A DNA stretch of 64,000 bases from Planctomycetes bacterium syqfu (lineage in GTDB: Bacteria > Planctomycetota > Phycisphaerae > Phycisphaerales > Phycisphaeraceae), in assembly GCA_020974905.1 (NCBI GenBank), contig CP087563.1:2480001-2544000 (forward strand), written 5' to 3'. Below the pieces are notes generated by a model that saw only the letters and a program-made list of their open reading frames with translations, made no database searches and was not told the origin of the DNA. Below are positions 7,185 through 41,550 of this stretch, piece by piece; position 1 is the first letter of the stretch, and each line of letters opens with the position of its first letter. Made by a program: the position numbers and the translations under genes.

Positions 7185-7238
7185 TACCGAATCACCGTCC
7201 GCCTAATCGGACAATCAACTTATTCCATGGAGCAAACC

Positions 7239-20232: not shown

Positions 20233-21342
20233 TTATTCGGAATCTGCTGATTCCAACACACCTGACTTAAACCAGTATTGATGTTCAGTACCTAAATCCT
20301 GCACGAGGATGTCATTGCAAATTGAGCGGGTTTGAATTTCACCTGGAGCGTCGACCACTGAGCTGATCAAATCAAATGTCGCACGGTAGAAAGGCTCCAT
20401 ACTGCTTGAAGCTAATTGCGGTTCAATAAATGGAACAGTAGATGTTAGACGCTGCTGAATATGTGAATTGGCAAGGAAGATCGGATTGATCATGCCATAA
20501 AGCATCACCGGGCAATCCAGTTGGCCACCGGTATGGGCTTTATCGATCTGGCGTGCATAGACTTTGGCAACTTTGTTTTGATCCATCTCAGCAAAGAGTG
20601 AAGTGGGAACTTCAAACAAGTTGAGTTTAATCCCTGCCTGGCTTGCTCCCATGACGACAGTCCGCGTAAACTCTTTATAGAAGACAATCGAGCCATCCGG
20701 CACAAACAGGGTCACTTCTTTTTCCTGTAAGTGTTTTAAAACCGCCAAACATGCTTGAGCCTTGTCTGCGGTATCGATAATACGATGACGGGGATAATCG
20801 ACCGCTTCTTCATATTTGGAATCGCCAAAATAGACAACTGGACAGTGCAACTGTTCGAGCTTTTCAAAGTGCTCCACGTTGTACTGGGCAGCACTTGTCA
20901 ACACGCAACGGATGTGCGGCGAGTTTTCGATCCGTGCCAACTCCTGATCGAAGTGCTTAAAGTCGTCAGTATCCTTAAAGACGGATCGCAAAGTAAAAGC
21001 ATAGCCAGGCTGCAATGCCGGGGGGTATGCTAATTTGATAATCTCTTGAAAGTAGTTACATGATTCGCGGCGCATGCCCCAAAGCATGATGTAGACTTCA
21101 ATCTCACCAGCCTGGGCACGCGGCTGGACGAATATGCCACGCCCATGTTCGCATCGCACCAAGCCCTCTTCCTGAAGCAGATCCATGGCACATTTAACCG
21201 TCTTGGCACTGACATTGAACTCTTGAGCCAGTTGACGGGTACCGGCCAATCGGCTTCCGGGCCTGAGATTGTCTTTTTTGATCATCTGTCTTAGCCGTGA
21301 CGCGACCTGGCTGGTTTTGGACGTATTTGTCAACAATTGCAT
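20233..21342 (-). CDS. GntR-family regulator with sugar-binding-like sensor domain
   Basis: A 369-residue regulator. Residues ~10-75 are a GntR winged helix ([36 protein letters not shown]). Residues ~80-360 look like a degenerate LacI/periplasmic-binding fold: [21 protein letters not shown], then [13 protein letters not shown]. It diverges from the 21553 operon (DUF5696-like, epimerase, glycyl-radical enzyme) and is followed by two pseudopilins on its own strand, so it could control both sides. The intergenic gap holds promoter-like sequences for both directions. A truncated second copy remains at 19243. Confidence 0.85.
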
Positions 21343-21552: not shown

Positions 21553-23553
21553 ATGCACATTGAAGCAAGTGATTCGGGCTTGGCACTTAGCCAAGGCAGT
21601 TTCGATCACGCCGATTCCCGCTGTTTGGCCCAAATTGAGTATTGGGATGCTAGTGGGCAGATCCAATTCACCGAAACGCACGCCGATTCCGGATGGCAGG
21701 TCGAATTCACCGGTTCGGTGAACAAAGGCAGTTGGTTGGCAACACATCCCCAACTCGGCCTTGCGATGAGCGCAACGATCACACAAACTGCCATCGGCAA
21801 ATTACTCACTGTCCCATACGAACAGTTGAAGGAATCCGCATTCGCGCGGTTTAAGAGCATTCGCCTATTGCCTGGCCTGGGAGAAACATGCGAGGGAGAT
21901 GGCAGCACATTGGTTCTACCTTACGAGGAGGGTGCATTATGCGACTGCCAGGATAAAACCCCCGACGAACATGTATTGCCCCTGTTCTACCCGCTCCCCT
22001 GCTATGGCAATATGGCGTTGTTCGGCATCACGTTTGGTGACGGTGATGCACTTGCTGCAATTGTTGATGGTGGAAGATTCGACTGCTCGCTGGCCATCCG
22101 GACGTGCTGGGGATCAAACAAGTCCTATGGCATTGATCCGGTCTTCAGCATTCGGGACTATGCAGACGATGAACCACTGGCGGAAAACATCAGCATCTAC
22201 TACAAAGTCCTGAATGGTCAATCCGCCAACGTTGCTGGCATCGCTGCGTTTTACCGGCAGTTCAATCGCCAAGTCCGTCAATTGACAACCCTGGCTGAAA
22301 AGATCCAAACCAATGAGGCTCTGTCCTATTCAGCAAAGGCAACCTCCTTGCGATGCAGGCTCGGGGTCAAGCCGATGCCGGTGACCATTCTGGAACAGAC
22401 TCCGGAAAACCAGCCGCCTGTTAACGTCTTTATGAACTTCGATGATGTCAGCAGTTTGGTTGATGAATGCGCCCGGCAGGAAATCGGCCCAACTGAATTC
22501 AACCTGGTCGGCTGGAATTTCGGCGGACACGACGGTGCATTCCCCCAACTCTTTCCTGTGGAACCAGCCTTAGGTGGACAAGCCGCATTAACCCGTTTGA
22601 TTGAACAGTCTCACGCGCATGGCTATCCCCTATCACTGCATGACAACTACTTTGATGCCTATTCACTGGCCGAGAACTTTGATCCACAAACCATCAATTG
22701 CAATCACGATGGTTCGCAGACGTTGGGCGGACAATATGGAGGTGGCCAGGCTTACCAGGTTTGCCCGAAATGTGCCTACGAAAAATATGCACGAACCCTC
22801 TTGCCGAAAGTTGCAGCATTGGGGATCAAGGGTGCTTACTACACTGACGTGCTCTCCGTTGCGCAACTTTGTAAATGCTATGATTCCAATCATCCACTCT
22901 CACGACGTGGCAATGCAAAATGGTGGAAGAAAATACTTGCTGAAATCCACACCCATTTCGGCGTCAGCTATTCCGAAGGCGCACGCGATTGGGCCTTACC
23001 CGAATTGGATCGTGCCTACCTGGTCAGCCTGACCACGGAGACGGCATTCTCGTTCATTGATAAAAAGGTGCCATTGTTCCAGATGGTTTATCACGGTTAC
23101 CTGATTTACAACAGCTTCCGCGGCGGCGTCAATGCATTACCCGGTGAAGAAATTTACCTGCGGAACATTGCCTATGGTGGCATGCCGATTCTCTACTACC
23201 ATCACATTTTCAATCCCGCATGGTCTGCTGAGGATGGATGGGATCGCGATCTGACTTTCGAAGGTCCCGAGAAACTCAGAGATGACGTCGCCCTGATTAA
23301 ACAGGTCACGGATGATGTTCAACGCTATGCATGGCTGCAAACCTGCTTCATCGAAGACTTCATTGAACATAGCCAAACGCTATCCGAAACAGTGTATTCA
23401 AACGGTGCCAGTATCTATGTCAACTATGCAGATCATGAATGTGTCACACCGGATGGCCAAACCGTGCCAGCGAAAAACTTCCTTGTCATCCCCAACACAA
23501 GCGACATGGACAATATGCCAGGCCAGAACAAGACGCTCACTGCAACGACTTAA
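21553..23553 (+). CDS. DUF5696/GH101-like putative glycosidase, no signal peptide
   Basis: A 666-residue protein. ATG 21553 follows GGGAG by 10 bases. The first ~250 residues are beta-sandwich. Residues ~280-600 look like a TIM barrel of the type annotated as DUF5696 and related to GH101 (endo-alpha-N-acetylgalactosaminidase): VNVFMNFDD, GYPLSLHDNYFDAY, GIKGAYYTDVLSV as a candidate nucleophile Asp, and GVSYSEGARDWAL as a candidate acid. There is a Cys-rich patch (QVCPKCAYEKYA). No signal peptide is present, so it should act in the cytoplasm on imported material. It is the first gene of an operon with an AGE epimerase 156 bases on. Family assignment is from memory. Confidence 0.62.
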   Translation: MHIEASDSGLALSQGSFDHADSRCLAQIEYWDASGQIQFTETHADSGWQVEFTGSVNKGSWLATHPQLGLAMSATITQTAIGKLLTVPYEQLKESAFARFKSIRLLPGLGETCEGDGSTLVLPYEEGALCDCQDKTPDEHVLPLFYPLPCYGNMALFGITFGDGDALAAIVDGGRFDCSLAIRTCWGSNKSYGIDPVFSIRDYADDEPLAENISIYYKVLNGQSANVAGIAAFYRQFNRQVRQLTTLAEKIQTNEALSYSAKATSLRCRLGVKPMPVTILEQTPENQPPVNVFMNFDDVSSLVDECARQEIGPTEFNLVGWNFGGHDGAFPQLFPVEPALGGQAALTRLIEQSHAHGYPLSLHDNYFDAYSLAENFDPQTINCNHDGSQTLGGQYGGGQAYQVCPKCAYEKYARTLLPKVAALGIKGAYYTDVLSVAQLCKCYDSNHPLSRRGNAKWWKKILAEIHTHFGVSYSEGARDWALPELDRAYLVSLTTETAFSFIDKKVPLFQMVYHGYLIYNSFRGGVNALPGEEIYLRNIAYGGMPILYYHHIFNPAWSAEDGWDRDLTFEGPEKLRDDVALIKQVTDDVQRYAWLQTCFIEDFIEHSQTLSETVYSNGASIYVNYADHECVTPDGQTVPAKNFLVIPNTSDMDNMPGQNKTLTATT

Positions 23554-23709
23554 ACAAGGCTACTGTAGCCCACAAGATCACTCCGGCAACTCAACCGAAT
23601 TCATCAAGCAATTCAGGTGAACTAAATACTTCTGATCACCTTCTTGACAACATATCAAAAGATAAATCAATCTACATTCTTCATTAAATAAACGATAAGG
23701 ATTTGAACC

Positions 23710-24891
23710 ATGGATCTCGCATCGATTCAAAAGTACATTGATATCAACCGAAGTAGTTTACTCGACAGTGTCATTCCGTTCTGGATGCAACACGGCGTCG
23801 ACCGTGAATACGGCGGCTTCTTCAACTATCTTGGTGAAGACGGCCAGGTACTGCATACCGACAAAGTCGTCCGGCATCTTGGGCGCTTCGTCTGGCTTTA
23901 TACCTTGTTTTACAACGAAATCGAAAAGCGACAGGAATGGCTCGATCTTGCTCTGCAAGGAATCGACTTCATCGAAAAATTCGGTTTCGACCGCGACGGG
24001 CGAATGTTCTATGAAGTCACCCGCGACGGTCGCCCCGTGCGCAAACGCCGCTATGTGATCACCGAGCATTACACCATCATGGCGTACACCCTGCTTTACC
24101 TGGCAACTGGCAATCCGGAATGGAAAGCCAAGGCCCGCAAACTCTATAAATGCGTGTTGATGTACTACTACAACCCGGAACTGTTGCCCCCCAAATCTTA
24201 TCCGGTGCGCAAAACCAAGGCTCACAACATCCCCATGATCATTGTCTGCTCAACTCAGCAATTACGTCTGTCAGGTGATGATCCGCTCTATAAAAACACC
24301 ATCGACTTCTGTCTGAATGAAGTCTACAACAACTTCCTGAACCCGGAGAAAAAAGCCTTGCTGGAAGTGGTCAATGCCGATGGCAGCTTCCTCGAAACCC
24401 CCGAAGGTCGCACCATCAATCCCGGGCATTCCATCGAATCCGCCTGGTTCACGATGGAAGAAGCGCGTCACCGCAATGACAAAAACCTGCTGCAAAAAGG
24501 CCTTCAGGCATTGGACTGGGCATTGGATTGGGGTTGGGATCACGAACATGGCGGCATCCTTTACTTCGTTAATGTCGATGGTCATCCCTGCGACCAATAC
24601 GAACACGAACTCAAACTTTGGTGGCCTCAGAACGAAGCGATCTATGCCACCCTGCTTGCATATCACATGACTGGCGAAGAAAAATATTGGAACTGGTTTA
24701 CCAAAATCCACGACTATGCCTACAGCCACTTCCCAGACCCCAAACATGGTGACTGGTTTAAATATCTTCGTCGTGACGGCAGCCTTTCCTCCACTGCCAA
24801 GGGAACCCGTTGGGCAGGTATGTTCCACCACGCACGCATGATGCACAACTGCGTGAAGCTACTGGAAGAAATCAAAGCCAAAGTACAATGA
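23710..24891 (+). CDS. AGE-family N-acyl-glucosamine 2-epimerase / sugar isomerase
   Basis: A 393-residue protein of the N-acylglucosamine 2-epimerase (AGE/RnBP) family, an (alpha/alpha)6 barrel that interconverts N-acetylmannosamine and N-acetylglucosamine or related aldoses and ketoses. The conserved histidines are visible: His240 in NPGHSIESAW and His373 in MFHHARMMHN, along with LKLWWPQNEAI. It overlaps the next start by ATGA, so it is coupled to the glycyl-radical enzyme. With NanA-like aldolases 21 kb away, an N-acyl sugar pathway is plausible. The cellobiose 2-epimerase and YihS-like branches are alternatives that motifs here do not exclude. Confidence 0.85.
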   Translation: MDLASIQKYIDINRSSLLDSVIPFWMQHGVDREYGGFFNYLGEDGQVLHTDKVVRHLGRFVWLYTLFYNEIEKRQEWLDLALQGIDFIEKFGFDRDGRMFYEVTRDGRPVRKRRYVITEHYTIMAYTLLYLATGNPEWKAKARKLYKCVLMYYYNPELLPPKSYPVRKTKAHNIPMIIVCSTQQLRLSGDDPLYKNTIDFCLNEVYNNFLNPEKKALLEVVNADGSFLETPEGRTINPGHSIESAWFTMEEARHRNDKNLLQKGLQALDWALDWGWDHEHGGILYFVNVDGHPCDQYEHELKLWWPQNEAIYATLLAYHMTGEEKYWNWFTKIHDYAYSHFPDPKHGDWFKYLRRDGSLSSTAKGTRWAGMFHHARMMHNCVKLLEEIKAKVQ

Positions 24892-27056
24892 CCATGAAAA
24901 AATACGCACAACAACTTGAGCATTTAAGATTGACCAAATCGCGCCAGACCCGCGAAAAACTGGATCAACTCGGTGTTCGCGATGAGGACGATTATGGCTG
25001 CATTCTCCCGCCTGACGATTTTAAATGGACACCGCCGATTACCGATGACAATGGCTCATTCTCCGGTGCAAGGACATGGGGTAAAAACTTCCGCTCACTG
25101 ATGGAGCATCACCCGGTCTATGTCGATCCCAATGACGCACTGGCTGGGCGATGGATGTTCATGCTCTCGCGTATGCGACAGGGGTATCGCATCGAGCTAT
25201 CCAACTTTGCCTTCGACTATTCGCATCTCAAACCTGATCAACTGAAATACGACATCACCTGTGGCATCGGCAAGGACGCTCACTTTGCCCCCGACTATCG
25301 CATCGGCCTTGAACTGGGTTGGAATGGCCTGCTTAAAAAAGTCCGTGATGCAAAGGTAAGATACAGCAGCGATCCGGTGGCACGTGAACTACTCGATGCA
25401 GAGGAAGATACCATACTTGGCATTCAGAATTGGATCGAACGCACTGCACACCAAGCCAACGTTCTGGCTCAACAGCAAACCGATGCATGGCAACGTGCCA
25501 ACCTGACCCAGATCGCAGAGATGAATCTGAAACTTGTCGACCATGCGCCGCTGACGCTACGTGAAGTCTGTCAATGGATCGCCTGGTTTAACATGGCATC
25601 TAGAACCTACAACCGTGACGGCGCGGGCGGACAACTCGATGAACTGCTGCGTCCATACTATGAACGGGACAAGGACACCGGCATCATCGATGACGAAGAT
25701 GCACAATTCTATATCGCCTGTTTGCTACTCAACGATCCACACTACTATCAACTCGGCGGCCCCGATCAGAATGGCAAAGACCAGACTTCTGCTCTGTCAT
25801 TCATCATTCTGGAAGCAGCCTCAGATCTGAAAATATCCTGCAATCTGACCATTCGCGTCCATGATGGAATGGACCGCAAACTGTTTGAACGTGGCGTGGA
25901 GATTTTGCTACAAGATCGTCTAGCCTATCCACGCTTCTCCGGCGACAATGCGTTGGTCGAAGGCTTCATGAAAAACGGCTTTTCCGCCGAACTCGCCCGG
26001 CAGCGCATTGCTACCGGTTGCAACTGGATGAGCCTTCCCGGCATGGAATACACGCTTAACGATGTGGTCAAAATCAACATCGCCAAGGTGTTTGAAGTCG
26101 CCTTTAGTGAAAACATGTCACATCAGCCGTCACTGGAACAACTGGAAGAGCTCTATATCAAGCACTTTGCCAAGGCTGTGAAAACTGTGGCAGAGGGGTT
26201 GGACTTTCACCTGGAATACCAATACCTCAACGAACCGGAATTGCTGCTCAACCTTCTGTCACATGGCCCCATCGAAAAGGGACTCGACGTCTCGCATGGC
26301 GGCGCAACGTACTACAACATGGCATTGGATGGTGCGGGTCTGGCAACTGTGGCTGATTCGTTTGCAGCCATCGAGCAACGCGTTGTTCGCGAGCAATGTC
26401 TGGCCTGGAAACAATTGGCTCAATCCATTGAAGCTGATTTTGAAAATGAAGATGGCCAGCGTATTAAGCTGATGCTTAAACATTCCGAGAAGTTCGGACG
26501 AGGTGATGGACTGGGCGACAAATGGGCATTGCGTCTGACACAAATTCTGCAAGACCACGTGGCAGGCAAACAAACCCCCGGCGGCAGACGCATGATTCCC
26601 GGCTGGTTCTCATGGGCGGACACCGTGCGTTTTGGCCGAAGTGTCGGTGCGACACCTGACGGCCGTAAAGCACATTCGGCCATCGCCCATGGAGCGAATC
26701 CCAATCCCGGATTCCGTCATGATTCCGCAGCATCGTGCATGGCTCAAGCGGTGGCTGCAATCCAACCCGGCTATGGCAACACCGCGCCGTGGCAATTGGA
26801 ACTGGATCTGGGCATGGCGGATCATCCTGCAGCAGTCCAAAACGTCATGGCATTGATGCAGGCCCACTTTGACCAAGGGGGCACACTCATCAATATCAAC
26901 ATTGTCGATTCCCAAACGTTACTCGATGCCCATGAACATCCGGAAAATCATCCCGACCTGATCGTCAGAGTCACCGGCTTCAGTGCCTACTTTACGTCTC
27001 TATCAAAGGACTTCCGGGAACTGGTGGTTAAGCGCGTTATCAAGGAGGCATGTTGA
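24888..27056 (+). CDS. Glycyl-radical enzyme of the PFL/dehydratase superfamily, subclass unknown
   Basis: A 722-residue enzyme. ATG 24888 overlaps the epimerase stop (ATGA). The glycyl-radical loop RVTGFSAYF places the radical on Gly697, 26 residues from the end. The thiyl Cys is Cys378 in ATGCNWMSLPG. Pyruvate formate-lyase has paired Cys-Cys and diol/choline/isethionate-type enzymes have GCxE; this protein has neither, since Trp follows at the Glu position. It is shorter than PFL and most dehydratases (about 750-850). The activase follows after 6 bases. The substrate may be a sugar-derived or amino-sugar-derived compound given the epimerase, but this is inference. Confidence 0.88.
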   Translation: MTMKKYAQQLEHLRLTKSRQTREKLDQLGVRDEDDYGCILPPDDFKWTPPITDDNGSFSGARTWGKNFRSLMEHHPVYVDPNDALAGRWMFMLSRMRQGYRIELSNFAFDYSHLKPDQLKYDITCGIGKDAHFAPDYRIGLELGWNGLLKKVRDAKVRYSSDPVARELLDAEEDTILGIQNWIERTAHQANVLAQQQTDAWQRANLTQIAEMNLKLVDHAPLTLREVCQWIAWFNMASRTYNRDGAGGQLDELLRPYYERDKDTGIIDDEDAQFYIACLLLNDPHYYQLGGPDQNGKDQTSALSFIILEAASDLKISCNLTIRVHDGMDRKLFERGVEILLQDRLAYPRFSGDNALVEGFMKNGFSAELARQRIATGCNWMSLPGMEYTLNDVVKINIAKVFEVAFSENMSHQPSLEQLEELYIKHFAKAVKTVAEGLDFHLEYQYLNEPELLLNLLSHGPIEKGLDVSHGGATYYNMALDGAGLATVADSFAAIEQRVVREQCLAWKQLAQSIEADFENEDGQRIKLMLKHSEKFGRGDGLGDKWALRLTQILQDHVAGKQTPGGRRMIPGWFSWADTVRFGRSVGATPDGRKAHSAIAHGANPNPGFRHDSAASCMAQAVAAIQPGYGNTAPWQLELDLGMADHPAAVQNVMALMQAHFDQGGTLININIVDSQTLLDAHEHPENHPDLIVRVTGFSAYFTSLSKDFRELVVKRVIKEAC

Positions 27057-27062
27057 AATTAT

Positions 27063-27968
27063 ATGCGTGGCATGATCTTCGATATCAAACGCTGCTCCAT
27101 AGAGGACGGGCCGGGCATCCGCACCACGGTCTTCCTTAAGGGCTGTCCGTTGCGCTGTACATGGTGCCACAATCCGGAATCTCAAAAAGGACAAAGCGAA
27201 TTACTGTTCTACCTGGAAAAATGCATTGGTTGTGAGCAATGCATTCAGACCTGTACGCACGACGTGCATGTCAAAGGAGACACAGGTCATCAACTCAACC
27301 GTGCAAACTGTACTGCCTGCGGACAATGCACACAGCACTGCTACTCCGGTGCGATTGATCTGGCGGGTCGTGAAGTAACCGTCGAACAAGTCATGTATGA
27401 AGTGAACAAAGACCGTAGCTTTTACATCCGATCCAACGGCGGCATCACTCTCTCTGGCGGTGAACCACTGCTTCAACCCGCATTCACTCAGGCAATCCTG
27501 AAAAAGGCACATGAATCCGGCATTCATACCTGCCTGGATACCAGTGGCTATGCACCATGGCAATCTATCAAAGTGTTGCTCGATGACGTTGACCTGTTTT
27601 TATTCGACCTGAAAATAACTGATCCCAAGCAACACAAACAATACACAGGCGTAAACCTTGCCCCGATCCTGGACAATCTCAAACGTATTGACAAAGCGGG
27701 TAAAGCAATCTGGTTACGGTGCCCAATCATCCCGGCAATTAATGCGAACATCGAACATATCAATAAACTCTCAGAGATCGCCTTAACTCTGCGACACCTT
27801 AAAAAAATCGATCTTCTGGCATACCATCCTCTTGGGGAAGACAAACGCAAAGCCATGGGCCAAACACCCACAGAGATCGCAGACGATATTCCGCAAACAA
27901 CAATCGACACCTATCGCACACTGTTACAAGATCGATTAACTCATCGAGAAATGGTTATCTCAACATAA
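27063..27968 (+). CDS. Glycyl-radical enzyme activase (radical SAM)
   Basis: A 301-residue radical SAM activase. Cys28, Cys32 and Cys35 form the CxxxCxxC cluster motif (KGCPLRCTWCHNPES). An insert holds two ferredoxin-like clusters, CIGCEQC/C at 54-64 and CTACGQC/C at 83-93, as in activases of dehydratase-type glycyl-radical enzymes and unlike PFL activase, which lacks the insert. The GGEPLLQ motif of the SAM site is present. It starts 6 bases after the glycyl-radical enzyme and surely activates it by abstracting hydrogen from Gly697. Oxygen would destroy both. Confidence 0.93.
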   Translation: MRGMIFDIKRCSIEDGPGIRTTVFLKGCPLRCTWCHNPESQKGQSELLFYLEKCIGCEQCIQTCTHDVHVKGDTGHQLNRANCTACGQCTQHCYSGAIDLAGREVTVEQVMYEVNKDRSFYIRSNGGITLSGGEPLLQPAFTQAILKKAHESGIHTCLDTSGYAPWQSIKVLLDDVDLFLFDLKITDPKQHKQYTGVNLAPILDNLKRIDKAGKAIWLRCPIIPAINANIEHINKLSEIALTLRHLKKIDLLAYHPLGEDKRKAMGQTPTEIADDIPQTTIDTYRTLLQDRLTHREMVIST

Positions 27969-28004
27969 CAATATAGCTTTGCTATGTAGACAATTGGACT
28001 CATC

Positions 28005-29096
28005 ATGCCGCCAAGTGAACAACCTATCAATGAATTGCCAACCCTAGCACAAACATCGCTATCCCTCATAGATACCGATGTTCATACCGCACTCAATCAT
28101 ATGGACGAACTCAAACCGTATCTGCCAGCCTATTACCGCAATCTAACCTTGGACCTTCCGGGACGTGCAGGTTTTTTGAGTCCCATTGGCGTTCAGCGTC
28201 AGGATGCGATTCCAGAAGAAGGTGGCATACCTGGCTCTTCCGTGAGCATGATGCAAAAACAGTTGCTTGATGCGTACCAAATGGATTATGCCATCCTCAA
28301 TGACTCATCGATGCTGGGCATCTCGGTACATGCCGATGCCAATTACGCCGCCGTACTGGCGCGAGCGTATAACGACTACTTCGCTGAGAACTGGCTTGAG
28401 AAAGATCCCCGGATCCTGGGCTGTGTCTTGATCGCACATAACAATCCGACGGAAGCCGCCAAGGAAATCAAGCGGATTGGCGGCCATCGAAAAATCGTGC
28501 AGGTCATCATGAGTAGTGCCAGCCGAAGTCCGTTGGGTGAACGGCAGTATTGGCCCATCTATGATGCTGCTTGTGAGATGAATCTACCAGTTGCTGTACA
28601 CCCGGGAGCTGAATGCTCCGGCGTCGCGAATCCCTTCACCGCCGGCTTCCCGACCAGTTACTTCGAATGGCACAACAATCTCAGCCAAAATTACATGTGC
28701 CAACTCAACAGTATGATCTGCCAAGGCGTCTTCAATCAATTCCCCAATCTGAAACTGGTCTGCATCGAAGGTGGCATCGGTTGGCTACCTCACCTGATGT
28801 GGCGAATGGACAAAAACTGGAAAGCGCTACGCTTCACTGTCCCCTGGCTTGATCGTCAGCCCAGCCAATGCATACTTGAACATGTCCGCCTGACCACCCA
28901 GCCCATCGAAGAACCTGAAAATCGGCAACACCTGCTGCAAATTCTGGAAATGGTCCATGCGGAGAAAACCGTCATGTTCTCCAGCGATTACCCGCATTGG
29001 GATGGTGACTGCCCTGTACATGGCTTGCCGCGGTTACCTGAAGCGATGAAGCAGGCAATCATGTTTGGTAACGCACAGGCATTGTACAACCTGTAA
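28005..29096 (+). CDS. Amidohydrolase-family (ACMSD-like) metal-dependent hydrolase or decarboxylase
   Basis: A 363-residue TIM-barrel protein of the amidohydrolase_2 family. Metal-site motifs: IDTDVH at 22-27 (a variant of the first HxH, with Asp in place of the first His, as in ACMSD-like proteins), VHPG near 200, and FSSDYPHWD near 330. Members hydrolyse or decarboxylate ring or carboxylate substrates. It starts 36 bases after the activase, so it is probably in the same operon, and is followed 58 bases later by a Rieske protein. Its substrate is unknown; a product of the glycyl-radical enzyme is possible. Confidence 0.83.
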   Translation: MPPSEQPINELPTLAQTSLSLIDTDVHTALNHMDELKPYLPAYYRNLTLDLPGRAGFLSPIGVQRQDAIPEEGGIPGSSVSMMQKQLLDAYQMDYAILNDSSMLGISVHADANYAAVLARAYNDYFAENWLEKDPRILGCVLIAHNNPTEAAKEIKRIGGHRKIVQVIMSSASRSPLGERQYWPIYDAACEMNLPVAVHPGAECSGVANPFTAGFPTSYFEWHNNLSQNYMCQLNSMICQGVFNQFPNLKLVCIEGGIGWLPHLMWRMDKNWKALRFTVPWLDRQPSQCILEHVRLTTQPIEEPENRQHLLQILEMVHAEKTVMFSSDYPHWDGDCPVHGLPRLPEAMKQAIMFGNAQALYNL

Positions 29097-29154
29097 AAGT
29101 TAAAACAGTCAGACAAACTTATCCCCAGCCCATCACAATCCTGTGGAGCTGCAT

Positions 29155-29610
29155 ATGAATCCGCAATCTCGCACAAAACATATTGTCTGTCCTGTCAGTG
29201 AGATTCCTCCCGGACATCGAAAAATCGTCACCATCAACGGACGGTCAATTGGCATTTTCAACATTGATGGCCAATACCATGCCATCCGAAACGCCTGCCC
29301 ACACCAACGCGCCCCACTCTGCATGGGAAAAGTCACCGGTACCAGTACATCCACAAAACCAGGAAAATATCAATGGGGAAAAGATGGCCAAATCATTCGC
29401 TGCCCCTGGCACAACTGGGAATTCGACCTGACCACGGGAAAAAGTGTATTCAACCCCAATCAAGTTCGTATCAAACATTACGATGTGACAACCGAAGCAA
29501 CATCAAATCAAACAAAATCATCATGCCATGTTGAAACGAATTATTCGGAACCCGAACTGGAAAAATACGATGTTGGTATTGAGCAAATGATGGTCGTCAT
29601 CCAAATTTAA
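29155..29610 (+). CDS. Rieske [2Fe-2S] ferredoxin-like protein
   Basis: A 151-residue protein with Cys48-x-His50 (NACPHQRAPLC) and Cys83-x2-His86 (RCPWHNWEF), the ligands of a Rieske cluster. ATG 29155 is preferred over GTG 29143 because GGAG lies 6-7 bases upstream. A ~25-residue insert between the ligand pairs is rich in Ser, Thr and Lys. It has no membrane helix or oxygenase domain, so it is a small electron carrier or a subunit. The same pairing of amidohydrolase-2 and Rieske proteins is familiar from aromatic-type degradation, but no oxygenase is present here. Confidence 0.88.
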   Translation: MNPQSRTKHIVCPVSEIPPGHRKIVTINGRSIGIFNIDGQYHAIRNACPHQRAPLCMGKVTGTSTSTKPGKYQWGKDGQIIRCPWHNWEFDLTTGKSVFNPNQVRIKHYDVTTEATSNQTKSSCHVETNYSEPELEKYDVGIEQMMVVIQI

Positions 29611-29743: not shown

Positions 29744-30604
29744 TTAATATTCATCACAGTCAAAAACCCGAACAAAATCAACCTCAAAACAATCTGGCAA
29801 TACCGCCGATTTTAATACCTCTACTGGCCCACAAGAATTACCAGAGCCAATTTTTTTCTCCAATCCGCCTCGATTACCCAAGTTTTTATGATAACCATGA
29901 CATTCTGTAGAGACCAGAATAAATTGTTCGATCTCAGAGACAGGCGTTTTCTGAACACCAATTTTCCTGCCATCTGCATAAAATGCATACCCAGATGGCG
30001 GCCAATCCACTGCATAATGATGCCACCCATCTTCTGTTTCTTGATAAGGAAACCAAAAATGACCATTCCACTTACAGTCCTTACCATACCCTCCCCATCC
30101 ATTTCCACATCCGATCAAACCATGCGTATGTTGCTTATAGTTCTCCATAATATCACATTCAACACCACCAAATCTCGGATCAGGATGAGAGCCGATACCT
30201 GGAGCCTGCAACCAGAACGCTGCATGCCACCCATCATTCTTCGGCAGTCTACAACGTATTTCGTAAAATCCGTATCGATGCATAAATTTAACTGGTTCAT
30301 ATGCTCCAAACGGCCAAAACCCATCACTATCTTTAGGTATATCAAATGTATTGGATCCAGTTTGAAGGTGTGGCGACAAATACTCGCCATTCTTTTCAAG
30401 AAGATGAAGTTTCAGTGAACCATCACTAACTTCAACTCCATCAGATGTAAATGTAGGCGAAGGGACTCCCCAATAGTTTAAGCGATAATTCCATTTAGTT
30501 TCATCTAGGGAATTACCATCAAATTCGTCGTGCCACACCAACTGCCACTGCTTTTCAGAAGGTACGAAACTGTCATTGTGATTCGGCACAGGATACTTGT
30601 TCAT
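29744..30604 (-). CDS. GH16-family endo-glycanase-like protein without signal peptide
   Basis: A 286-residue GH16 (laminarinase/agarase clan) jelly roll. WHDEFDG opens the domain; the catalytic motif is Glu149-Cys-Asp151-Ile-Met-Glu154 (ExDxxE form), with Glu149 as the nucleophile and Glu154 as acid/base; WHHYAVDW follows. ATG 30604 is chosen (GGGG 7-10 bases upstream) over an ORF extension to 30622. No signal peptide is seen, which is unusual for GH16 and suggests an intracellular role or export by another route. It is divergent from the AraC regulator at 30819, its likely regulator. Codons are AT-rich. Confidence 0.86.
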   Translation of the reverse strand: MNKYPVPNHNDSFVPSEKQWQLVWHDEFDGNSLDETKWNYRLNYWGVPSPTFTSDGVEVSDGSLKLHLLEKNGEYLSPHLQTGSNTFDIPKDSDGFWPFGAYEPVKFMHRYGFYEIRCRLPKNDGWHAAFWLQAPGIGSHPDPRFGGVECDIMENYKQHTHGLIGCGNGWGGYGKDCKWNGHFWFPYQETEDGWHHYAVDWPPSGYAFYADGRKIGVQKTPVSEIEQFILVSTECHGYHKNLGNRGGLEKKIGSGNSCGPVEVLKSAVLPDCFEVDFVRVFDCDEY

Positions 30605-30818
30605 TTTAAACCCCAAATACAAAACTGAAAAAAATTTATATTACTTAATTATTGTAAGTCATAAAATCTTCACAGCAATAGAACAAAGATAAAAATACTT
30701 TAACAATTCTACATTTTATCAATTTTTACAAAGATCAAGTCCGAGGCGTCAAAATCGTTTTGTGTTTTCAATTCCTCCAAACCATTTATTTCAACAATCA
30801 CTTGTACTGGAATCAATC

Positions 30819-38812: not shown

Positions 38813-40219
38813 ATGAAATCAATCGCAGTATTACAACTGGCTCTCGTGCTGGCGTTGAGCGTTCCTGCTTCGGCTGGTCGGCCCCCAAGTGTCGACAGAC
38901 TCTTCACTGATCACATGGTGCTCCAAAGTGATCAACCTGTCCCGATCTGGGGTCGAGCTCGTCCCAATGAAGAAGTGGCTGTCATTTTCGGTGAATATCG
39001 AAAGTCTACACAGGCCGATGGAAAAGGCCAGTGGCGTGCGGTCTTGGATCCGATGCCAGCCAACGATACGCCCCAGACAATGCTCATCACCGCTCTTGGA
39101 CCAAATGGTGACGATTTAAAAATCAACGACATATTGGTCGGCGAAGTGTGGCTCTGCACAGGACAATCCAACCTGTATGTGCGCATGCGTGAAGGACAGG
39201 TCAATGATGCCAAACAAATCATCGCAAGCGCCAACCAGCCACAAATCCGTATGAGTTTTAACCATAAACCATGGGAAGCCATCACGCCCCAAACGGTAAC
39301 GAATCATTCAGCGATCGCTTACCTCACAGCTCAGAATTTACATGACGAGTTGAAGGTGCCAGTTGGGATCATCACCATCACTGCCGGCGGTCGTGCATTG
39401 CAGACATGGTTTAATCTGGAAAAATTCAATGCTGATCCCGCCAATGCAGACATCGTGGAGCATTGGAAACATGCATCGGAGCATTCGCCCAAAGATCAGA
39501 TGTATCGTCCATTTCTCAGACCAGGCGGGATGGATCAACAATTCATGCAACCCGTCTATGGCTATGGGATTCGTGGTGTGTTGTGGTACCAGGGTGAAGC
39601 AGAAGCGGCGCGTGATTGGGGCAAGCGGTATCACCGACTGTTTCCACAACTGATCAGCACGTGGCGAAAAATATGGGACAACCCGGACATGCCGTTTTAC
39701 TGTGTGCAATTACCTGCCTATGGCAAACCAGCGGATGATCCAGGTGCACCAAGTGCCTGGGCCGATGTTCGTGATGCCCAGGCATTGGACCTGCCCCATA
39801 CCGGTTATGCGGTGACGTACGATGGCAAGGATGTTGACCTGCACCCCAAAGAGAAAAAGTTCGTAGCCGATCGTTTGGCCAAACTGGTCCTCCAGGATTA
39901 CTACTACAAGAATGTCGTAGGTGTCAGTCCAAGTATTAAAAAGGTGATTCGTGATGGATCGAACCTGAAGGTGACATTCAACCATTTACGTTCTGGTCTC
40001 AAGGCAAGCGCAAGCCAGGTCCACGGCTTTGCCATCGGCAATGATCAGGGCAAATGGATTTGGGCCGATGCCAAAATTGATGGCAAGACCGTCATCATCG
40101 ACACGGCTCAAATGTCCGACGCGACCCAAATTCGCTACGCATGGGCCGACAATCCGCAGGCCAATCTGATGAGCAAAGAAGACTTACCTGTCGCGCCTTA
40201 CCAAGGAAAAATCCAATGA
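38813..40219 (+). CDS. Secreted sialate O-acetylesterase-like SGNH hydrolase
   Basis: A 468-residue protein with a signal peptide (MKSIAVLQLALVLALSVPASA). It follows the DUF303/sialate-O-acetylesterase pattern: LFTDHMVLQ near the start, VGEVWLCTGQSN with candidate nucleophile Ser119, VLWYQGEAEA, and Asp342-x-His344 in VDLHPKEK as the rest of the triad. Family members remove O-acetyl groups from sialic acid or other acetylated sugars, including plant and algal glycans. It starts 22 bases after the GH42-like gene and overlaps the GH20 start by ATGA, so the three form one operon. The WYQGE segment has Ala where Ser/Asn is usual. Confidence 0.86.
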   Translation: MKSIAVLQLALVLALSVPASAGRPPSVDRLFTDHMVLQSDQPVPIWGRARPNEEVAVIFGEYRKSTQADGKGQWRAVLDPMPANDTPQTMLITALGPNGDDLKINDILVGEVWLCTGQSNLYVRMREGQVNDAKQIIASANQPQIRMSFNHKPWEAITPQTVTNHSAIAYLTAQNLHDELKVPVGIITITAGGRALQTWFNLEKFNADPANADIVEHWKHASEHSPKDQMYRPFLRPGGMDQQFMQPVYGYGIRGVLWYQGEAEAARDWGKRYHRLFPQLISTWRKIWDNPDMPFYCVQLPAYGKPADDPGAPSAWADVRDAQALDLPHTGYAVTYDGKDVDLHPKEKKFVADRLAKLVLQDYYYKNVVGVSPSIKKVIRDGSNLKVTFNHLRSGLKASASQVHGFAIGNDQGKWIWADAKIDGKTVIIDTAQMSDATQIRYAWADNPQANLMSKEDLPVAPYQGKIQ

Positions 40220-41550
40220 GTGATCCCAATGGATCTAAACTGGGGATTCGTGCTTTACATCTGGATTTAAAGGGGCTGCCGCCCACTGCGGATCGGCTGA
40301 TGGCCTTGCCACGCATTGCAGCACTTGGTGGCTACAACGCGATATTGGTCGAATGGGAAGATGCTTTCCCATGGACTTGTGATTCACGTTTTCAATCACC
40401 GACTGCTTACAGTCGTCAGACGGTTCGTGACTTTGCACAGGCTGCTTCGGATCAGGGCATCAAGATCATCCCATTGGTGCAATGTCTGGGACATATGGAA
40501 ACGCCGCTGCGGTATCACAAACACCTGCGTGAAATACCGGATCGACCAGAAGTCCTAAATGTCACTGCCAACGGCGCCCAGCAACTTGTCCAGAACATGA
40601 TGACCGACGTGCTGGATGTGTTACCTGATGTGCGTTATTTCCATCTTGGCGGAGATGAAGCACGAAGCTTTGGCGCGCATCCGGACACCGCTGCAGCCAT
40701 CAAACAGTCAAGCAAAGAGCAAGTTTATCTGCAGCATATCAAGCCGTTATGCCATACACTCTCCGAACGGGGCATTCGGCCGATTCTTTGGCATGACATG
40801 ATGTGTCATTGGTCAGATGAATGCTTAAAAGAACTGGCATCCATGGCTGATTTGTGCGCTTGGCATTACCACGGCGATCCGGCTGTGGCAGGCTTATGTA
40901 CACTCGACATCCTAAAGCATTTTGATGACGCAGGAATCAAACTCTGGTTAGCAACTGCATACAAAGGGGCGGACGGGGCAGATGCGGATTTACCCAATCC
41001 TGAAAAACGCATGGCGAATACCAAGTCATGGATGAAGCTTGCTCAACAAATTCCCTTCGTTGGCGGCATGGCAACAGGTTGGAGTCGCCATGCCACACCG
41101 GGCATGCAAAACGAACCAATGAATGCAGCGTTGGATGTGATGCTGGCGGTAGGTTGGACTTTACGTGATGGCCAGGTTCCGCCATTGTCAAAATGTATCG
41201 AAGCGCTGGATACCATCGGTGAGCGAAAGCTGTTTACCAACTGCCAGCAAGTCATGGCCAAACTCACAGACAGCCGCAGAGCAGCCTGGCATATGGTGGT
41301 CCAAATTCATCAGCAGTTGGTGATGGAGTCAGTTTGTCCTGAAAAGCAGGGATCGCGCATCCTGCCAACCATCGCCGGCTATCTGGATAACTACATCCAG
41401 GATGTCCAACGCGACGGCCAGAACATGCATCATGTCTTTGATGGCGTGATCGAAGCCTGCTGGATTGATGAATATCTGCAAGTGCGAATGCAATCACTCG
41501 AACAAGCGCGTAAGGACCTCAATGAGCATTTGAGGAAACATCTGCAATGA
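40216..41550 (+). CDS. GH20-like beta-N-acetylhexosaminidase, cytoplasmic
   Basis: A 444-residue protein built on the GH20 catalytic barrel. HLGGDEA gives the catalytic Asp147-Glu148 pair (Asp polarises the acetamido group, Glu is acid/base). ATG 40216 overlaps the esterase stop (ATGA); a longer frame to 40141 lies within that gene. No signal peptide and no N-terminal GH20b domain are seen, so it is a minimal, intracellular form. It should release N-acetyl-hexosamine from imported oligosaccharides. Some GH20 relatives without GH20b act on other sugars, so substrate is inferred. Confidence 0.82.
   Translation: MSDPNGSKLGIRALHLDLKGLPPTADRLMALPRIAALGGYNAILVEWEDAFPWTCDSRFQSPTAYSRQTVRDFAQAASDQGIKIIPLVQCLGHMETPLRYHKHLREIPDRPEVLNVTANGAQQLVQNMMTDVLDVLPDVRYFHLGGDEARSFGAHPDTAAAIKQSSKEQVYLQHIKPLCHTLSERGIRPILWHDMMCHWSDECLKELASMADLCAWHYHGDPAVAGLCTLDILKHFDDAGIKLWLATAYKGADGADADLPNPEKRMANTKSWMKLAQQIPFVGGMATGWSRHATPGMQNEPMNAALDVMLAVGWTLRDGQVPPLSKCIEALDTIGERKLFTNCQQVMAKLTDSRRAAWHMVVQIHQQLVMESVCPEKQGSRILPTIAGYLDNYIQDVQRDGQNMHHVFDGVIEACWIDEYLQVRMQSLEQARKDLNEHLRKHLQ

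Follow-up and report, generated by a model that had tools for sequence, protein, structure and literature searches.

Among the most difficult reactions of anaerobic metabolism are several catalysed by glycyl-radical enzymes (GREs), whose newly found clades have repeatedly turned out to act on new substrates. It is established for the class that O2 inactivates glycyl radicals; amidohydrolase-related dinuclear oxygenases (AROs), in contrast, need O2. The eliminases among the GREs (such as glycerol dehydratase 1r8w, propanediol dehydratase 9rcp, CutC, HypD and the PflD/YbiW type) share a fold, a C-terminal glycine loop, a single thiyl cysteine, a dedicated radical-SAM activase and a conserved histidine, and the glutamate of the CXE motif on their cysteine loop is described as conserved (PMC7077986, PMC8473560). 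The AROs AibH2, SfbO and PtmU3 are described as sharing the PF04909 fold, six metal ligands, a second-sphere acid and an adjacent Rieske ferredoxin (PMC10811679, PMC7782822). In the 64,000-nucleotide stretch of Planctomycetes bacterium syqfu analysed here (contig CP087563.1; hereafter the window), a GRE with the thiyl motif GCNW is followed by its activase, a predicted ARO and a Rieske ferredoxin, all behind a glycosidase-like gene and a sugar epimerase.

The GRE belongs to a clade that has lost the very residue on which the eliminase mechanism rests, and its chemistry cannot be read from the known members. If the ARO serves the GRE substrate, the two would form a natural pair for comparing O2-free with O2-based C–H activation of one molecule.

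A separate clade of glycyl-radical enzymes

By its domains and motifs the window enzyme is a member of the GRE superfamily in which radical formation is predicted: PF01228 is matched at 57.9 bits, the radical loop RVTGF (an RVxG loop) presents Gly697, Cys378 stands at the thiyl position, and a cognate radical-SAM activase is encoded beside it. The thiyl motif (G377-C378-N379-W380) is neither the CXE of the eliminase class nor the adjacent Cys-Cys of pyruvate formate-lyase, which in E. coli PflB reads CCVS in that column. In a joint alignment GC[NHQ]W stands at the thiyl cysteine in all 72 family rows, with 38 His, 30 Asn and 4 Gln after the cysteine, and in none of 10 other GREs, which read GCVE, GCIE, TCVE, GCVT or CCVS. 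The 72 rows are family members of at least 400 amino acids, with membership set by overall similarity and not by the motif; the count leaves aside shorter pieces (L029 and the smaller pieces of L094 and L147), two sequences in wrong frames (L006, L010) and three that were not entered (L008, L009, L011). Two later members, L162 (GCHW) and L164 (GCQW), fit the motif and are not among the 72; L160 and L161 turned out to be identical with L012 and L019 and were counted once.

In a tree of 77 rows, in which the outgroup branches are long and from which 5 of 82 rows shorter than 550 amino acids were left out, all 67 CXW rows lie on one side of a branch with SH-aLRT support of 90, and a 63-row core has support of 100. 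The GRE of the window and that of one Lentisphaeria genome (L028) are sisters (support 99). On this alignment and tree, the GC[NHQ]W enzymes are one separate clade and form a candidate new, undescribed family. None of the 12 NCBIfam GRE models listed, which include HypD, CutC, HpsG, HPAD, indoleacetate decarboxylase and pyruvate formate-lyase, scored above its cut-off; the best, TIGR01774, reached 264.3 against 678.2. The original prediction, made from the window alone, had regarded the GRE as lying outside the characterised families and GCNW as a possible cluster of its own, and it was right on both points; how large and widespread the clade is could not have been seen from the window.

The AlphaFold model (pLDDT 82.7) finds its best Foldseek matches among eliminases, and the nearest solved relatives by sequence and fold are 1r8w, PflD (8yjo) and 9rcp, at about 20% identity in structural alignments. 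Structures of PflD and YbiW are among the fold matches, and the titles of 8id0 and 8id7 name 1,5-anhydrohexitol 6-phosphates, so sugar-derived GRE ligands do exist. His132 of the window GRE aligns with the histidine of APGHT in HypD. The family differs from the eliminases in having CXW for CXE, in RVTGF in most rows as against RVAGY in the eliminases compared, and in its recurrent neighbours. Because the CXE glutamate is lost across the whole clade, the known elimination mechanism is not simply transferable. A HypD-like GRE of a relative (L003, G053:C48) likewise departs from CXE, its thiyl motif being GCVT.

Distribution and gene neighbourhoods

Scanning genome contigs yielded 18 relatives with 52–71% identity to the window GRE. 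Seventeen of them, with the fragment L029 excluded, make up the 18-row alignment A1 together with the window sequence, and these 17 further rows argue that the observation is not due to chance. Invariant residues in A1 are many and often polar. With the A1 profile at E <= 1e-100, family members turned up in 4 genomes out of 392 in the phylum of the window and in 6 out of 397 in its class (each count includes the host genome). Among Lentisphaeria, to which Victivallis vadensis belongs, the count is 25 of 197 (13%); among Clostridia, to which the L022 genome belongs, it is 23 of 291 (8%). These last two samples were centred on known carriers, which are included in the 25 and the 23. Victivallis vadensis DSM 14823 is a named host strain, and relatives are found on plasmids of the marine Bacteroidota isolates Persicobacter (51%) and Flammeovirga (50% identical). 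The GRE is the sole PF02901 match in the host genome, and among 60 relatives of the host no orthologue was found, seven of them having GRE matches at 22–38% identity; the gene is therefore sporadic in this lineage and probably acquired. Among the titles listed by literature searches with little reach into subscription journals, nothing dealt with GC[NHQ]W or Gfo/Idh-linked GREs, or with a GRE beside an ARO.

Neighbours were counted within 6 kb of the GRE in 76 loci (8 of them on stretches shorter than 6 kb) by profile matches on all stop-to-stop frames. An activase is near in 57 loci, a Gfo/Idh/MocA dehydrogenase in 33, a cupin in 13 (with a second cupin type in 2), an FAD oxidoreductase in 9 and a mannose-6-phosphate-isomerase-like protein in 8. 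In Lentisphaeria and Clostridia the order of a TIM-barrel and Gfo/Idh fusion, activase, GRE, cupin and isomerase repeats, often with the FAD oxidoreductase. In Victivallis vadensis and its relatives two Gfo/Idh/MocA genes come after the activase and GRE. From such neighbourhoods we infer that the family substrate is a sugar; the conserved gene order is stronger evidence for a sugar pathway than the presence of mannoside hydrolases, a link that, counted without a background rate for the neighbour families, is suggestive only.

The window's epimerase and DUF5696 protein recur with the GRE in a single other locus (2 of 76), the sister locus L028, at identities of 68% for the epimerase, 68% for the GRE and 42% for the DUF5696 protein. 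The expectation that an epimerase and an amidohydrolase would accompany such GREs thus holds for the epimerase in just these two loci and fails for the PF04909 protein, found in one, and the six-gene set as a whole is not conserved.

The window activase, which scores above the NCBIfam cut-off for GRE activases (Table 1), has CxxxCxxC at residue 28 and two ferredoxin-type CxxCxxC stretches. Its identity to the 11 family activases used for comparison is only 31–46%, including cases in which the GREs agree at 60–71%; the L024 activase, for instance, is 43% identical, whereas the GRE fragment of L024 matches the window GRE at 71%. By these identities the window activase has apparently been exchanged or has run ahead in divergence. 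It also stands downstream of its GRE, the rarer order (14 loci, against 40 with an activase upstream, within 300 bases).

Further GRE arrangements were seen. L164 (G934:C13, 7572–14340) has two GREs in tandem, one GCQW and one of another type, with two activases, behind a sodium:solute symporter-like gene. L126 (G834:C53, 8818 and 17189) has a GCHW operon and, nearby, a second GRE–activase pair with the thiyl motif TCVE. In L143 and L144 the CXW GRE lies beside a protein that resembles the uroporphyrinogen-decarboxylase-type (methyltransferase) family, a label that is an impression and comes from no search.

The predicted oxygenase and its Rieske partner

The PF04909 protein matches the five best ARO chains (8sm7, 8sm6, 8sm9, 8sm8 and AibH2, 6m1w) at 370 to 200 bits; 8sm7 gives 370 bits as against at most 34.6 for an ACMSD chain and 61 for 5-carboxyvanillate decarboxylase. 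The ligands given for AibH2 are Asp25, His27, His211, Glu265, Asp337 and His340, with an acid at 342 described as conserved in the binuclear members (PMC7782822). All have counterparts in the alignment (D25, H27, H199, E255, D328 and H331, with D333 as the second-sphere acid), and the adjacent gene encodes a Rieske protein with the CxH...CxxH signature (C52xH54, C87xxH90). Such pairing with a Rieske ferredoxin has been used to predict new AROs (PMC10811679), and the window protein is most likely an oxygenase of this kind. The earlier label of an ACMSD-like amidohydrolase survives at the level of the Pfam family alone; an ACMSD-like decarboxylase was rejected on account of the metal ligands, the scores and the Rieske partner, and the amidohydrolase reading is unsupported. 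In the account available, all four candidate AROs studied had redox-active diiron sites, and just SfbO showed an O2-dependent reaction, on a surrogate substrate (PMC10811679). The window ARO differs from the known ones in being a single subunit gene and in its position behind a GRE and activase; there is no adjacent reductase gene among the genes scanned.

The epimerase and the glycosidase-like protein

The AGE-family epimerase (374 bits to PDB 8bry) has strong sequence similarity to the N-acylglucosamine 2-epimerases 8bry and 6f04 and keeps the catalytic Arg and Glu of the superfamily (Arg59 and Glu309 by alignment), and at 362.5 bits it does not reach the NCBIfam cut-off of 600 for N-acylglucosamine 2-epimerase. 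A pocket for the N-acetyl group has been proposed at Phe116, Ala173 and Ile177 (nAGE10 numbering), residues that are reported to become Tyr, Asn and His in cellobiose epimerase and YihS (PMC6333288). The window enzyme has I117, N173 and I177 and its L028 counterpart V117, N173 and I177, so that two of the three positions are altered in both GRE-linked enzymes alike: Phe is replaced (by Ile in the window), and Ala/Gly by Asn. The Phe is kept in all four solved AGEs shown and in three of three Bacteroidota AGEs, two of them from sialic-acid type loci; Asn occurs in none of the seven. This one altered pocket argues for a mannose-like sugar with a hydroxyl at C2 as substrate rather than N-acetylmannosamine, and the amino or N-acyl sugar originally proposed is now a weaker guess.

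The DUF5696 protein has as its nearest solved relative the GH129 alpha-N-acetylgalactosaminidase NagBb (5wzn; E 1.4e-17, 66.6 bits), a similarity that is weak, and both residues compared with NagBb are kept. The first, D432, aligns with Asp435 of NagBb, which is named as a GH129 residue (PMC5698469). At 66.6 bits membership in GH129 itself is unsure. At the position of Glu478, which we take to be the second catalytic residue of NagBb, the aligned Glu is retained. The label DUF5696/GH101-like given to this protein holds in its first half (Table 1) and not in its second, the GH101 match being sub-threshold at 23 bits against a cut-off of 25. The GH129-like anhydrogalactosidase DagB of Zobellia, compared by its description and not by alignment, also counts among the closest known systems (PMC5698469), and the sugar released might be N-acetylgalactosamine (GalNAc), anhydrogalactose or another. 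A carrageenan pathway, considered on account of the GH129-like gene, a GH16 protein at 29744–30622 with a weak kappa-carrageenase match (28 bits) and a GH2, was dropped; the Pfam scan of 19 window proteins showed neither a sulfatase nor an anhydrogalactose gene.

Proposed oxic and anoxic routes for one sugar

The preferred explanation, put forward tentatively and falling somewhat short of even confidence, is that of a sugar-catabolic operon of a Phycisphaerae planctomycete in which the GRE and the ARO would be the anoxic and oxic routes for one hexose derivative. The GH129-like glycosidase would free a sugar, and the epimerase would invert or isomerise C2 of a hexose, a position at which a hydroxyl is likelier than an N-acetyl group. 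The activase would charge the GRE, and with a thiyl radical on Cys378 the enzyme might then cleave a C–O (less likely a C–C) bond of the unphosphorylated hexose derivative; acid/base help without the CXE glutamate could come from other kept residues, among them His132, Asp392 and the Asn, His or Gln after the cysteine. The ARO, with its Rieske donor, would use O2 to hydroxylate a C–H bond and so may open under oxic conditions the same substrate that the GRE opens under anoxic ones.

Since O2 destroys glycyl radicals and the predicted ARO–Rieske pair directly behind the O2-sensitive GRE should need O2, the two enzymes cannot run simultaneously. The host genome (7.38 Mb) has two PF00115 (cytochrome-oxidase subunit I) matches above cut-off, which suggests that the host can respire O2, and in a host with respiratory oxidase genes the action of one or the other enzyme on a common substrate would best account for the co-location of GRE and ARO. 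Broader still is the proposal of two mutually exclusive radical solutions to one sugar step, a CXW GRE without O2 and a dinuclear Mn/Fe or Fe/Fe oxygenase with it, and of the CXW family at large as an uncharacterised radical pathway by which bacteria of gut, sediment and sea use free sugars; taken whole, this proposal is doubtful.

Several observations weigh against the preferred explanation. The ARO/Rieske pair accompanies the GRE in 1 of 76 loci and so does not belong to a core pathway of the GRE family, and a search at E <= 1e-20 did not find the ARO in the 21 other GRE-bearing genomes, mostly drafts, which leaves 1 of 22. Of the eight plasmid AROs whose surroundings were read, five lie beside betaine or choline transporters, and just those of Halobaculum and Halomontanus lie mainly by sugar genes. 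For 8sm7, the nearest ARO candidate of solved structure, the account available gives a redox-active diiron site and no substrate (PMC10811679). The GH129-like gene points to GalNAc if to anything. Mannoside hydrolases (GH38, GH47, GH130) are near the GRE in 7 of 76 loci, a number without a background count, and the 19 window proteins put through Pfam include no mannosidase. The 76 loci themselves are not independent, with near-copies (L016/L018; L087/L088/L100) or second copies per genome among them. Finally, promoter-like and terminator-like sites did not exceed the chance level in a consensus scan, and one plus-strand promoter-like match fell within the activase gene (27589–27616), so that co-transcription of the six genes is presumed.

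Nearly as likely as the preferred explanation is that the pair is an unrelated downstream oxygenase, for a quaternary amine or an amino acid for example, and that the sugar operon ends at the activase. In addition to its absence from the other 75 GRE loci and the 21 other genomes, the ARO–Rieske pair moves as a unit: the Rieske gene directly follows the ARO gene in all eight annotated plasmid loci read (seven haloarchaea and one Pseudomonas, with up to 52.6% identity, in Halobaculum), five of which have the betaine or choline transporters already mentioned, and in four of six planctomycete ARO loci (L047, L049, L050 and L051; L052 has an overlapping-frame match and L048 none). The ARO is present in 7 of 392 phylum genomes including the host, and the other six are not among the GRE carriers of the equally drawn sample. 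Against an unrelated oxygenase, the ARO lies on the same strand as the activase after a 36-base gap with no plus-strand terminator-like site between them in the consensus scan, and its G+C (51.6%) resembles that of the GRE (52.1%) and epimerase (50.3%) in a window of 46.6%. The next gene past the Rieske gene is on the opposite strand, which leaves this unit without a downstream transporter.

The plasmid loci bear on two further points. The idea of a sugar-specific ARO subclade is unsupported, five of the eight adjoining betaine or choline transporters. In three haloarchaeal loci (L044, L045 and L151) an MmgE/PrpD protein comes after the ARO and Rieske genes, with glycine-betaine ABC genes and a carbon–nitrogen hydrolase at the flanks, a candidate betaine-type route.

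It is also conceivable, if unlikely, and compatible with either role of the ARO, that the GRE breaks a C–C bond of a sugar acid or keto sugar by decarboxylation, formate release or a retro-aldol-like step. The replacement of the eliminase glutamate by Trp in 72 of 72 rows would fit this, as would an HpcH/HpaI aldolase near the GRE in two loci (on the same strand in L012, on the opposite strand in L027) and the dehydrogenases within 6 kb in 33 of 76, but the nearest solved relatives (1r8w, 8yjo, 9rcp) are eliminases and the second cysteine of pyruvate formate-lyase is lacking.

The pathway first suggested for this locus, a radical route for an amino or N-acyl sugar with an ACMSD-like decarboxylase or hydrolase, has become improbable. 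It would still account for an epimerase nearest to GlcNAc 2-epimerases (8bry), for the DUF5696 protein nearest to an alpha-GalNAcase and for a GH20 domain protein elsewhere in the window (40141–41550). It sits badly with a PF04909 protein that has ARO ligands and a Rieske partner, and with the epimerase score and altered pocket described above; nor was a deacetylase or deaminase recognised among the recurrent neighbour clusters identified, some clusters remaining unidentified.

A diol dehydratase-like eliminase for a small deoxysugar product such as 1,2-propanediol is very improbable: propanediol dehydratase is the top Foldseek match and rhamnosidase-like genes occur in L021 (GH106), L028 (GH78) and weakly L127, but the CXE glutamate is lacking, the profiles for such enzymes lie far below their cut-offs, and the many invariant, often polar residues would better fit a larger polyol. 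A 1,5-anhydrohexitol 6-phosphate pathway of the PflD/YbiW kind was rejected: the 19 window proteins scanned include neither a phosphotransferase nor a fructose-6-phosphate aldolase, although sugar kinases as such were not looked for.

The locus

The six genes behind the divergent regulator were confirmed where the original prediction had placed them, on the plus strand and in its order of activase behind GRE, then PF04909 protein, then Rieske protein, and the coupling of the epimerase stop to the GRE start by ATGA is real (24888–24891). Six bases separate the GRE from the activase.

Table 1. Genes of the GRE locus and the divergent regulator, with positions in the window
Feature	Position	Strand	Evidence
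GntR-type regulator, possible regulator of the cluster (association by position alone)	20233..21342	-	PF00392, 59 bits (cut-off 27); divergent from cluster
DUF5696 protein, GH129/GH101-like glycosidase	21553..23553	+	DUF5696, 156.9 bits
AGE-family sugar 2-epimerase/isomerase	23710..24891	+	PF07221, 159 bits; PDB 8bry, E 6e-111
Glycyl-radical enzyme (GRE), GC[NHQ]W family: Cys378, Trp380, Gly697	24888..27056	+	PF02901, 306 bits; PF01228, 57.9 bits; motif, tree, fold
Radical-SAM activase of the GRE	27063..27968	+	TIGR02494, 338.9 bits (cut-off 174.35); motifs
Predicted amidohydrolase-related dinuclear oxygenase (ARO), PF04909	28005..29096	+	PDB 8sm7, E 1.5e-109; 8sm6, 8sm9, 8sm8, AibH2 6m1w
AibG-like Rieske [2Fe-2S] ferredoxin	29143..29610	+	PF00355, 67 bits; C52xH54...C87xxH90

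Elsewhere the window carries at least seven dispersed pseudopilin-like genes (at 7227, 10032, 18450, 19496, 32328, 54313 and 57845), which start with a sequence of 11 protein letters (not shown).

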